Made by a program: the position numbers and the translations under genes. Below the pieces are notes generated by a model. It made no database searches. It was given only the letters and a program-made list of their open reading frames with translations, and was not told the origin of the DNA. A DNA stretch of 64,000 bases from Modestobacter marinus (GTDB lineage: Bacteria; Actinomycetota; Actinomycetes; Mycobacteriales; Geodermatophilaceae): the NCBI RefSeq assembly GCF_011758655.1, contig NZ_JAAMPA010000001.1, positions 1,302,001 through 1,366,000 on the forward strand. Direction: 5' to 3'. Numbering within the stretch: the first letter of the stretch is position 1; every line of letters starts with the position of its first letter. Below are positions 1 to 3,103 of this stretch, in pieces.

Positions 1-41
1 CCTACGCGCGCCTGGCCCCCGGGGAGTCCGTCGAGGTCTGA
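1..41 (+). CDS. possible 3' end of an upstream gene (partial)
   Basis: Reading from position 3, the frame gives YARLAPGESVEV and then TGA at 39-41. The composition resembles a real C-terminus, but only 12 codons are visible. It would overlap the tail of the convergent EAL gene by about 40 bases. No function can be given. Confidence 0.25.
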   Translation, partial: YARLAPGESVEV

Positions 42-1885
42 GGTCCTTCGCCCGGCGTCGCGAGGGACAACGGGACCCCGACCCGCGCGTCCAGCTCGGC
101 GATCCGGGCCGCGTACCGCCGCACCCGGTCCCGCTCGGTGCGCAGCGCCCGTTCGGTCTCCACCTGCTCGGTGACGTCGGCCTGGATGCCGATGTACTGG
201 ACGACGGCGCCGGTCCCGTCGGTCACCGGGGTGAGCGTGCACTCGTTCCACCAGGTGCTGCCGTCGGAACGCCGGTTGAGCAGCACCTCCCGGCACTCGT
301 CGCCCACCTCGATCGCCGCGCGGATCCGGCCCACGGCCGCGGGGTCGGTGTCCGGGTGCTGCAGGAAGCGGCAGTTGCGGCCCAGCAGCTCGGCGGCGGG
401 CTGCCCGGCCAGCCGCTCGAACGCGGGGTTGACGTAGACCAGCGGCTGGTCGGGCAGCCGCAGGTCGACGATGGTGACGCCGGTGCCGACCGCGGCCAGC
501 GCCCGGTGCAGGAGCGCCTCGCCCGGGTCGCCGGCCGACCGCCCGGTGAGCAGCGAGGCCACGCCGGCCGGCACGTCCGCCACCGCCTGACCGTCCGCCG
601 CGGGCCCGCGCCGCGTGGTGCTCGGCGCGACCCGGGAGAGCAGCGCCCGGGCGGCCCGGACCACCGTGTCGCGCTCGTAGGTGAGGGAGAACGCGAACCG
701 GCGGGCCAGGTCCGACCCGTCGTCCCCGAGGTCGCGGGCCAGCAGCGCGGCGCTGAAGTGCGGGCTGAGCACCACGACGTCCCACTCGCCGCGCACCGGG
801 TCACCGGGTGCCAGGTCGGCCCCGCGCAGCCCCGGCAGCGGCTCCGCCGGCAGGTCCTCGCCGAGGGCAGCGACGAAGCCCACCCGCTCGACCAGGTCCC
901 GGTACCGCAGCCGGGTCGCCGGGGTGACGTGCCGCGCCTCCTGGAACGTCGTCGCGACCACGCAGGTCTCCCCCAGCCGCATGGCCTGCCGTTCCAGCTG
1001 CTTGCTGAGCTCGATCAGCAGCGCCTTGGGCGCCTCCCGGACCGGCACGTGCGCCGGCAGGCACTCGAACGGGGAGAGCAGCCGACCCTGCGGGTCAGGG
1101 GGCGGGACGGCGGGCAGCCGGAGCGCTCCGGGTCGTGCGCCCGGGGCGGCGCCGGGCCCCGGGCGGCCGAACAGCCAGCCCTGCCCGAGCGTGGCGCCCA
1201 GGCCCCGCGCCATCGCCAGGTGCGGGCCGGTCTCGATGCCCTCGGCGAGCACCAGGGCACCGGTCGACTCGGCGTAGGCGTTGACCGCGTTCATGATCTC
1301 GGCGATGGCCGGGCCGGGGCGTCCCTGCACCAGGCGCAGGTCGAGCTTGACGACGTCGGGGCGCAGCAACGGCATGAAGGCCAGCGAGAGCGACTCGGCG
1401 CCGACGTCGTCCAGGGCGATCGCCCAGCCGAACTCCCGCACCCGCGCGACGGTCCGGAGCAGTTCCGCGGGGCGGGCGGCCAGCGCACGCTCGGTGATCT
1501 CCAGGACCACCCGCAGGTCCCCCGGCACCGGCACCTCGGGGTCGAACAGCCCCGCCACGGGGGTGTCGTCCAGCACCTCGGGCTCGACGTTGACGAAGAC
1601 GGTGGAGGGGGCCAGCAGGCCGCGCGCCACCGCGCCGCGCAGCGCGGCGGCCCGGCACGCCTGGTCCAGCTCGGTGAGGCAGCCCTCGGCGCGCGCCGCG
1701 GCGAAGAGTGCGTCCGGCGCCTCCAGCGGCCCCTGCGGGCCGCGGGCGAGCGCCTCGTAGGCGACGACCCGCCCGCTGTCCAGCTCGACGATCGGCTGGA
1801 ACACGCTGCGCACGGCACGGTCCGCGATCACCGCCCGGGCACCGGTCGTCCGCTGCTCCTGGAACTGCTGCACGTCGTCCCCCAT
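2..1885 (-). CDS. EAL-DICT-LOV protein, probable light-sensing c-di-GMP phosphodiesterase
   Basis: A 627-residue protein with three domains. The EAL domain (about 25-245) keeps the catalytic set: YEALARG, the Asn of VFVNVEP, the Glu of LEITE, the two Asp of LDDVG, the Lys of VVKLDL, the Glu of AEGIE and the Gln of GQGWLFG. It should therefore hydrolyse c-di-GMP. A DICT sensory domain follows (about 270-440), then a PAS domain (about 480-600) carrying GRNCRFLQ, the flavin-adduct motif of LOV blue-light receptors; the cysteine is residue 505. A helical tail follows the LOV core. The ATG at 1885 was chosen because EAL homology begins soon after it, although the frame stays open far upstream. The gene is divergent from the GAF-domain gene at 1991. 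Light control of the EAL activity is inference from the domain order. Confidence 0.85.
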   Translation of the reverse strand: MGDDVQQFQEQRTTGARAVIADRAVRSVFQPIVELDSGRVVAYEALARGPQGPLEAPDALFAAARAEGCLTELDQACRAAALRGAVARGLLAPSTVFVNVEPEVLDDTPVAGLFDPEVPVPGDLRVVLEITERALAARPAELLRTVARVREFGWAIALDDVGAESLSLAFMPLLRPDVVKLDLRLVQGRPGPAIAEIMNAVNAYAESTGALVLAEGIETGPHLAMARGLGATLGQGWLFGRPGPGAAPGARPGALRLPAVPPPDPQGRLLSPFECLPAHVPVREAPKALLIELSKQLERQAMRLGETCVVATTFQEARHVTPATRLRYRDLVERVGFVAALGEDLPAEPLPGLRGADLAPGDPVRGEWDVVVLSPHFSAALLARDLGDDGSDLARRFAFSLTYERDTVVRAARALLSRVAPSTTRRGPAADGQAVADVPAGVASLLTGRSAGDPGEALLHRALAAVGTGVTIVDLRLPDQPLVYVNPAFERLAGQPAAELLGRNCRFLQHPDTDPAAVGRIRAAIEVGDECREVLLNRRSDGSTWWNECTLTPVTDGTGAVVQYIGIQADVTEQVETERALRTERDRVRRYAARIAELDARVGVPLSLATPGEGPQTSTDSPGARRA

Positions 1886-1990: not shown

Positions 1991-3103
1991 GTGAGTGCCG
2001 CGTACGAACTGCCGACCTGGGCCGTCCTGCCGGCCCGGGCCGACGCGGCCTTCGACCGGCTCGCCCGGTCGGCGGCCGAGGCGCTGCGCACCCCCCGGGC
2101 GCTGGTGGTCCTGGTCTCCAAGGGCGGGCAGGTCTTCCCGGGCGCCCACGGGTTGCCCGAACCGTGGGCCAGCCGCCGCTCGATGCCGCTGAGCCACTCG
2201 ATCAGCAAGTCGGTGGCCACCAGCGGCAGCCCCCTGGCGCTGCGCGACGCCCGGGAGCACACGGAGTTCGCCACCGGCCCCTCCGTCCAGGAGCTGCACG
2301 CCGTCGCCTACGCCGGGGTGCCGCTGTGGGGCGTGCACGGGGAGCCCATCGGCGTGCTGAGCGTCATCGACACCGCGCCCCGGGACTGGACCGACGCCGA
2401 GCTCTCGACGCTGCACCGGATGGCCGACGAGACCTCGCGGCAGCTGCGGTTCCGGGTGATCGAGCTGGCCGAGCAGGAGGCGCACGCGGTCGCCGTCCGC
2501 GACGACAGCGCCGCCCAGAGCGCCGCCGAGGCGGCGCGCGCGGCGTTCGTGCTGGCCGAGGCCGACGCCGACCGGGCCCGGGTGGTCGCCCGGCTCAGCA
2601 CCGCCCTGCTGACGGCGGAGACGCTCCCCGACCTGCTGCACACGGTCGACCGGCTGGTCCGGTCCCCCCTCGGTGCCACCACCGTGCTGCTCGGGGTGGC
2701 CGAGGCGGGCTGCCCGGAGCTGCGGGTCTGGTCCGCCGTCCGGGCAGCGGCCGGCCCGGACCCGGTCGCGGGTCTCCGGGTGACGGACGCGCACCCGCTG
2801 GCGGTGGCGATGCGTGAACGGGACCTGGTGGCGGTCGCCACGCCGGAGGAGGCGGACGCCTTCCCCGGGCTGGTCGCGCTGCCCGGCCCGGGACCGGTCC
2901 TCGCCGTCCACCTGCCGCTCGGACAGCACCACTCCGACGCGGCGCTGCTGGTCGGCTGGCGGCAGCCCCGGGGACTGGACGCACCGGTGCGGGCCGTCGT
3001 CACCGACCTGGCCCGGCCGGTCGGCCACGCCCTGGACCGGGTGCTGCTGCGCGACCAGCGGCTGCGGCTGGCCGATCTGCCGCCGGGGCCGGCCCGGAGC
3101 TGA
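1991..3103 (+). CDS. GAF-domain sensory protein
   Basis: A 370-residue soluble protein. Residues about 10-160 form a GAF domain of the type seen in actinobacterial sensors (PLSHSISKSVATSG, then AGVPLWGVHGEPIGVLSVID). An Ala/Glu-rich helical linker follows, then a second GAF-like region (about 195-355). No output domain such as SpoIIE, kinase or HTH is present, so it is either a stand-alone sensor or works with a partner. The GTG start is preceded by AGGGGGA. It is divergent from the EAL-DICT-LOV gene, with about 105 bases between the two starts, so the two may share a promoter region. The ligand is unknown. Confidence 0.7.
   Translation: MSAAYELPTWAVLPARADAAFDRLARSAAEALRTPRALVVLVSKGGQVFPGAHGLPEPWASRRSMPLSHSISKSVATSGSPLALRDAREHTEFATGPSVQELHAVAYAGVPLWGVHGEPIGVLSVIDTAPRDWTDAELSTLHRMADETSRQLRFRVIELAEQEAHAVAVRDDSAAQSAAEAARAAFVLAEADADRARVVARLSTALLTAETLPDLLHTVDRLVRSPLGATTVLLGVAEAGCPELRVWSAVRAAAGPDPVAGLRVTDAHPLAVAMRERDLVAVATPEEADAFPGLVALPGPGPVLAVHLPLGQHHSDAALLVGWRQPRGLDAPVRAVVTDLARPVGHALDRVLLRDQRLRLADLPPGPARS

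Follow-up and report, generated by a model that had tools for sequence, protein, structure and literature searches.

A LOV protein of Modestobacter marinus that has probably lost its GGDEF domain and kept a probable c-di-GMP phosphodiesterase

Introduction

Where a multidomain c-di-GMP protein has two effectors, the one to which its PAS or LOV sensor is wired is usually guessed from the order of the domains. A gene at one end of a 64,000-nucleotide stretch of the Modestobacter marinus genome (hereafter the window; contig NZ_JAAMPA010000001.1, positions 1,302,001 to 1,366,000) poses this problem directly, as it encodes an EAL domain, a DICT domain and a LOV domain in that order, with the sensor last. 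A sequence-only reading had proposed a blue-light-controlled c-di-GMP phosphodiesterase. The question raised by the locus is whether the LOV domain is wired to the EAL domain at all. The domain in the middle gives little guidance: DICT is predicted to act in the light response (PMC8612252, excerpted text), and the excerpted text of PMC8846402, where DICT, LOV, EAL and GGDEF are treated together, places it among domains without discernible purpose.

Results

An EAL-DICT-LOV protein with a conserved flavin pocket

The proposed combination of EAL, DICT and a C-terminal PAS domain in one reading frame was borne out by Pfam matches along a complete 627-residue ORF (Table 1). The DICT match scored 39.7 bits against a curated cut-off of 23.8 for PF10069 (residues 286-385, E=5.7e-10), placing this region in the DICT family, and PAS_9 matched residues 477-573 (E=1.3e-18). 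An AlphaFold2 model built on a 46-sequence alignment (mean pLDDT 84.8, pTM 0.66) was confident for all three domains, with residues 424-453 below a pLDDT of 50, an exit helix at 572-601 and disorder in the tail from residue 609 on. Among the matches listed by Foldseek and VIA-align no DICT match was present, both lists being filled by LOV and EAL. VIA-align rows for YkuI (2bas, 2w27) spanned residues 14-570 at an rmsd above 14 and were not usable.

Table 1. Features of the EAL-DICT-LOV gene and its immediate neighbours (window coordinates)
Feature	Position	Strand	Evidence
Complete CDS, EAL-DICT-LOV protein, 627 aa	2..1885	-	ATG 1885-1883, TAG 4-2
EAL domain, residues 21-242, signature residues complete	1160..1825	-	Pfam EAL E=1.4e-36
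EAL loop 6, residues 158-172, LDDVGAESLSLAFMP, non-canonical	1370..1414	-	Genome EAL alignment and family rows
DICT domain, residues about 271-420 (Pfam core 286-385)	626..1075	-	Pfam E=5.7e-10; AlphaFold2 pLDDT about 95
Flexible DICT-LOV tether, residues 424-453	527..616	-	pLDDT <50; variable length; dN/dS
LOV domain, residues 454-571	173..526	-	Pfam PAS_9, YtvA model, PDB matches
Codon of Cys505, photoactive cysteine of GRNCRFLQ	371..373	-	Translation
LOV exit helix (J-alpha), residues 572-601; leads into GGDEF in relatives	83..172	-	AlphaFold2 and dN/dS
C-terminal tail, residues 602-627, where relatives have GGDEF; ends DSPGARRA	5..82	-	
Tail-to-tail overlap with convergent MBL-fold (beta-lactamase superfamily) gene	2..41		
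Divergent GAF-domain protein	1991..3103	+	Pfam GAF E=1.5e-14

The PAS domain was of the LOV type. Residues 458-604 matched the LOV portion of the NCBIfam YtvA model (E=4.4e-34) with 118 bits; the whole-protein cut-off of 250 bits lies higher, as would be expected when a single domain is shared. LOV proteins gave the best sequence matches in the PDB (6hmj, E=8.9e-34; 9vf7, E=3.5e-32; also aureochrome and short LOV proteins), and the modelled domain superimposed on 9vf7 with Z 21.4 and an rmsd of 2.6 over 140 aligned residues (VIA-align). Cys505 lies in GRNCRFLQ where the sequence-only reading had placed it. That reading had also named loss of the FMN-contacting Asn and Gln residues as grounds for refuting its proposal, and no such loss was found: relative to C505, residues N537, N547, Q568 and D570 are spaced at +32/+42/+63/+65, identical to C450, N482, N492, Q513 and D515 of AsLOV2 as given in the excerpted text of PMC9098866. 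Based on these residues, blue-light sensing by the window protein is likely.

The EAL signature is complete but loop 6 is non-canonical

All twelve EAL signature residues were present (Q30, E44, L46, R48, N99, E129, E132, D159, D160, K180, E215 and Q235), which we take, by reference to RocR, to be the catalytic residues and metal ligands. The EAL model superimposed on PdeA (3s83; Z 23.5, rmsd 3.1, 240 aligned) and on BlrP1 (3gfx; Z 22.6, rmsd 2.9, 226 aligned) in VIA-align. The active site had previously been described as fully conserved, which holds for the twelve signature residues but not for loop 6. There (DDVGAESLSLAFMP) the window protein has DDVGAE in place of DDxGxG, the second glycine of GxG being replaced by glutamate, and is thus not of the canonical DDFGxG type. 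For comparison, the genome has 28 EAL matches besides those in the four DICT proteins, and all but one short fragment were aligned; of these 27, 23 carried the full signature together with DDxGxG and four did not carry the full signature.

Across 90 family proteins, assembled as described below, the twelve positions were kept in 90/90, except E215 in 89/90. Residue 164 was Asp or Glu in every one of the 90, and the loop 6 deviation is therefore a family trait. What it weakens is the assignment to the canonical class I EAL domains, not the case for an active one. Because loop 6 is non-canonical, phosphodiesterase activity is not certain, and from its sequence we regard the EAL domain as a probable but unproven phosphodiesterase. 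The single change at E215, presumably the general base, is an E215A substitution in L012 (genome G014), one of the GGDEF-less proteins described below, whose EAL domain is possibly inactive.

Most relatives carry a GGDEF domain after LOV

Family loci were extracted on both strands. The proteins sampled are close relatives, drawn from the best 80 of 115 relatives plus 30 same-genus loci and loci of the window genome itself. From 114 loci, 15 exact duplicates and ten partial, truncated or frame-affected rows (L023, L029, L033, L034, L070, L076, L098, L100, L107 and L112) were dropped, leaving 90 with the window protein included. Two of the dropped rows, L098 and L100, showed non-EAL letters at the EAL motif in a smaller extraction, where they were probably out of frame.

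In the 46-sequence alignment the region from EAL to LOV was alignable throughout, in the same domain order and at 60-88% identity to the window protein, which thus belongs to this family. Its nearest named relatives are from Modestobacter (Geodermatophilaceae), at up to 89% identity; several of these are identical in sequence to loci of the same-genus genomes, which places the window in Modestobacter or its GTDB equivalent. An EAL-DICT-LOV-GGDEF composite was found in Geodermatophilaceae, Kineococcus, Cellulomonas and others among the best 80 of 115 relatives. Among 296 genomes of the class searched with a profile, 16 had a match at E<=1e-100, covering EAL-DICT-LOV in nine (window genome included) and EAL-DICT only in seven. 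The window genome has 32 EAL, 42 GGDEF and four DICT matches; each of the four DICT proteins has the order EAL-DICT-LOV, continued directly by GGDEF in the three other than the window protein, and one GGDEF-bearing paralogue is encoded at C2:689974-692169. Neither the EAL-DICT-LOV-GGDEF architecture nor its GGDEF-less derivative was found among the open-licence papers listed in literature searches. The large LOV census of Glantz et al. (2016) may list the architecture.

The domain following LOV was an intact GGDEF in 65 of the 90 proteins (63 with GGDEF, one with AGDEF and one with GGDEL), degenerate in 13 and absent in 12; Pfam searches on five examples agreed with this classification. All twelve GGDEF-less proteins are from Modestobacter. 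The sequence-only reading had stressed that the sensor stands last, which is true of the window protein but is a derived state in this family. Eleven of the 13 degenerate domains are from Blastococcus, forming a clade (including L045, L048 and L054) in which the motif reads, for example, TRDSF, ARDSF or GRDAF and the linker length is unchanged; this clade represents an independent route to cyclase loss.

The residues of the LOV pocket were retained across the family: C505 is a cysteine in 89 of 90 rows, and N537, N547 and Q568 are each kept in 89 of 90. In the GGDEF-less clade, C505 and all other tested LOV positions (ten in total) were kept in 12/12 members, as were the EAL positions, with E215 in 11/12. 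A conserved pocket shows that LOV has been retained, not that it communicates with EAL. A single protein, L109 from Kineococcus siccus, has lost the pocket (Cys to Ala, with N504, Q509, N537, N547 and Q568 also changed); its GGDEF signature is intact, a normal copy (L049) is present in the same strain, and L109 is probably a light-blind copy.

Constraint on the LOV exit helix follows the GGDEF domain

The spacing between LOV and GGDEF was nearly invariant. In 76 of 78 GGDEF-bearing proteins, 32 positions separate the Asp of DIT from the Asp of DxLT, equivalent to 35 residues if the count runs from the first Asp to the Leu of DxLT. The remaining two are L004, the third paralogue of the window genome, with 21 residues, and the aberrant L109. 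In LadC proteins the same measure defines a long class of 35 residues and a short class of 21, and the long class shows fold changes beyond 10,000 upon illumination (PMC10396304, excerpted text). A LadC spacing of either 35 or 21 was thus found in 77 of 78 GGDEF-bearing relatives and is absent from the window protein. On the other side of LOV, the distance from residue 419 (the end of DICT) to residue 469 (the start of LOV) varied from 40 to 81 across the 90 rows.

Selection on the two connections differed likewise. With dN/dS calculated as Nei-Gojobori sums over pairs, ignoring the tree, and with codon-bootstrap 95% ranges that are indicative, the exit helix gave 0.15 (0.05-0.27) for ten GGDEF-bearing paralogues from Modestobacter, 0.15 (0.06-0.28) in twelve Blastococcus proteins with GGDEF, 0.18 (0.05-0.39) in seven Geodermatophilus proteins with GGDEF, 0.32 (0.17-0.52) in eleven Blastococcus proteins with a degenerate GGDEF and 0.81 (0.45-1.37) in the clade of twelve without GGDEF. 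The DICT-LOV tether gave 0.73-1.07 in all five groups. Purifying selection remains on the domains of the GGDEF-less clade (EAL 0.21, DICT 0.25, LOV 0.39 with a range of 0.28-0.53); the corresponding values in the Modestobacter GGDEF paralogues are lower (0.12, 0.15 and 0.26), and the faster evolution in the GGDEF-less clade fits a weakening function. An AlphaFold2 model of the GGDEF-bearing L068 (mean pLDDT 76.9, pTM 0.47) was of low quality around DICT, and conclusions were drawn from it for two stretches only, the tether (415-442, pLDDT <50) and the exit helix (563-590).

The fixed LOV-GGDEF linker, the constraint that tracks the GGDEF domain and the free tether together argue that LOV was wired to GGDEF, not to EAL. 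As stated, the proposal that LOV controls EAL was not supported, since in the family LOV is joined at fixed length to GGDEF and its connection to DICT-EAL is variable, unconstrained and predicted to be disordered.

Probable loss of GGDEF in Modestobacter

The direction of change was examined in an IQ-TREE phylogeny of 32 rows with bootstrap and SH-aLRT support, in which the outgroup paralogue L004 forms a very long branch. The twelve GGDEF-less proteins formed one clade (100/100), whose sister clade holds three further Modestobacter proteins; together they make up a 15-row clade (100/99). The three comprise L017, with an intact GGDEF and the same sequence as L040; L076, with an internal deletion in GGDEF; and L112, which is EAL-DICT only. 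The outgroup L004 also carries a GGDEF. Because GGDEF-bearing relatives and outgroup surround the clade, a single loss is the simplest reading of the tree. The sensor-last order is best read as a truncation and not as a new wiring scheme, since LOV is fixed to GGDEF in the family and loosely attached to DICT-EAL, and GGDEF appears to have been lost here.

The order of the Modestobacter locus is constant: phosphofructokinase, GntR, divergent GAF, the EAL gene and a convergent MBL-fold gene. Between GAF and MBL lies EAL-DICT-LOV-GGDEF in L040, EAL-DICT-LOV in the window and its clade, EAL-DICT in L112 and in L133 (same contig), and no EAL gene in the five genomes of L135-L139. Modestobacter lapidis has EAL-DICT only (451 aa) at the same locus. 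In L076 the cut GGDEF stands beside MBL and the contig ends before GAF. At L131:2297-4500 (G003), EAL, DICT, LOV and GGDEF are found beside GAF, with EAL and DICT in different frames; an MBL match was not found in the 2.5 kb beyond GGDEF. The locus shows a natural deletion series within one genus: full gene, GGDEF cut, GGDEF lost, LOV and GGDEF lost, and no gene, the last by loss or by original absence.

Two further copies were irregular. At L132:2171-3955 (G024), GGDEF comes after EAL-DICT and no LOV match lies in between, so that LOV alone appears to be missing. In Modestobacter caceresii (G021; L023/L070) the frame changes within the EAL part, with matches to residues 1-253 and 215-627 in different frames; the break may mark a pseudogene or reflect an error of assembly.

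Discussion

A probable GGDEF-stripped photoreceptor

We consider it probable that the window protein is an EAL-DICT-LOV-GGDEF photoreceptor that has been stripped of its GGDEF domain and keeps a probable phosphodiesterase, with any route from light to EAL being non-rigid. Under blue light a Cys505-FMN adduct would form and the LOV dimer would rearrange together with its exit helices, a change that in the ancestor would have switched on c-di-GMP synthesis by GGDEF, as in LadC. With the presumed loss of GGDEF in the Modestobacter clade, the exit helix would lead to a tail whose coding sequence overlaps the convergent neighbouring gene, and the remaining output would be the EAL-DICT part, probably a c-di-GMP phosphodiesterase, on a floppy tether. 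An effect of light on EAL, if any, would most likely proceed through LOV dimerisation or a change in docking and not through a rigid helix, and the window protein would lower c-di-GMP instead of raising it. We place light control of EAL by any route at somewhat under even odds. The designation as a blue-light-controlled phosphodiesterase thus stands for its two ends, the LOV pocket being conserved and the EAL signature complete; control of the one by the other was not supported as stated. A bolder extension, offered tentatively, is that the family is a one-chain c-di-GMP light switch with opposing enzymes at its ends, EAL-DICT loosely tethered and GGDEF attached through the 35-residue LadC switch, and that deletion of GGDEF in Modestobacter would by itself have inverted the sign of the light response, turning a light-driven maker of c-di-GMP into a light-modulated breaker.

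Other explanations assign different roles to the LOV and EAL domains. A purpose-built blue-light phosphodiesterase of reversed domain order, with LOV directly and rigidly controlling EAL, would account for the retention of the LOV and EAL positions after GGDEF loss and for a LOV dN/dS below 1, and a C-terminal LOV is known from 6hmj (LOV match at 236-361 of 373 aa); we nevertheless find this unlikely, as the DICT-LOV tether is disordered, variable in length and unconstrained, and the constrained output of LOV, the exit helix to GGDEF, is relaxed in the window clade. That same relaxation, together with the faster evolution of LOV than in the paralogues, is what would be seen if LOV were a slowly decaying leftover on a light-independent EAL-DICT phosphodiesterase, and both the M. 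lapidis protein and the EAL-DICT-only matches in 7 of 16 class genomes agree with this. A leftover sits poorly, however, with the ten pocket residues kept in every member of the clade and with a LOV domain still under purifying selection, and we consider it rather doubtful. It is more improbable still that EAL is a c-di-GMP receptor rather than an enzyme, and the protein a light- and c-di-GMP-sensing adaptor: the replacement of DDxGxG by DDVGA(D/E) across the family and the E215A change in one member point that way, but the twelve signature positions are kept in 89-90 of 90 proteins.

The GGDEF-stripped reading leans on the family's own history as an experiment, in which constraint on the exit helix falls with GGDEF decay and loss while the tether is free in five groups; this points to GGDEF as the wired output. 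The deletion series provides a natural test of the effect of light on each remaining part within one genus, and the family offers optogenetic candidates.

Relation to known systems

LadC proteins (MsLadC and others; PMC10396304 and PMC12805367, both in excerpt) resemble the family in that LOV is joined to a following GGDEF by a coiled-coil-type linker, that of the family being of the published 35-residue class, and the window LOV matched the LadC dark-state structure 8c05. They differ in that the family has EAL-DICT before LOV and the window protein has no GGDEF. The long-linker LadC spacing is thereby extended to an EAL-DICT-LOV-GGDEF composite. SL2 of Synechococcus elongatus likewise combines LOV, GGDEF and EAL in one polypeptide and is a blue-light phosphodiesterase in which light drives hydrolysis (PMC8846402, excerpted text); there EAL is last, in the order as named, and here it is first, with DICT added and, in the window protein, no GGDEF.

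Short LOV proteins (PpSB1-LOV, W619_1 and PF5-LOV) consist of a LOV core flanked by short helices, as do residues 454-601, but are stand-alone, whereas the window LOV is tethered to EAL-DICT. BlrP1, whose EAL fold was matched by the model, also joins a blue-light flavin sensor to EAL, but the sensor, which we take to be BLUF and not LOV, comes first, and DICT is absent. The best LOV match in the PDB, 6hmj, presumably NmPAL of Nakamurella, shares the LOV domain at the C-terminal end but has an RNA-binding output, according to the entry title, and neither EAL nor DICT. A C-terminal LOV (6hmj), the combination of LOV, GGDEF and EAL (SL2) and LOV-GGDEF with such a linker (LadC) were thus already known separately.

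Neighbouring genes and the C-terminal tail

The convergent MBL-fold gene (Pfam Lactamase_B_3, E=1.1e-20) lies on the plus strand, starting outside the window (L115:11403) and ending at position 41, so that the stop codon of the EAL gene sits inside it. An overlap of about 40 nt was found in 11 of the 12 GGDEF-less loci. The terminal peptide DSPGARRA and its variants were rejected as a functional tail, as they fall within this overlap in 11/12 and are absent from the non-overlapping L016; conservation of the peptide is explained by antisense coding of the MBL gene.

The GAF gene was present in 23/23 same-genus genomes searched (own included). It was rejected as an obligate partner, since in five genomes GAF stands beside MBL with no EAL gene between them. 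The intergenic region was scanned for sigma-70 promoters and none was found, a result that is uninformative in such G+C-rich DNA. The GAF protein is fast-evolving, with 50-89% identity to same-genus copies compared to 88-100% for the neighbouring GntR. Outside the window, L115:8340-8801 is tandem-repeat-like DNA with an ORF of repeated VRRAW units.
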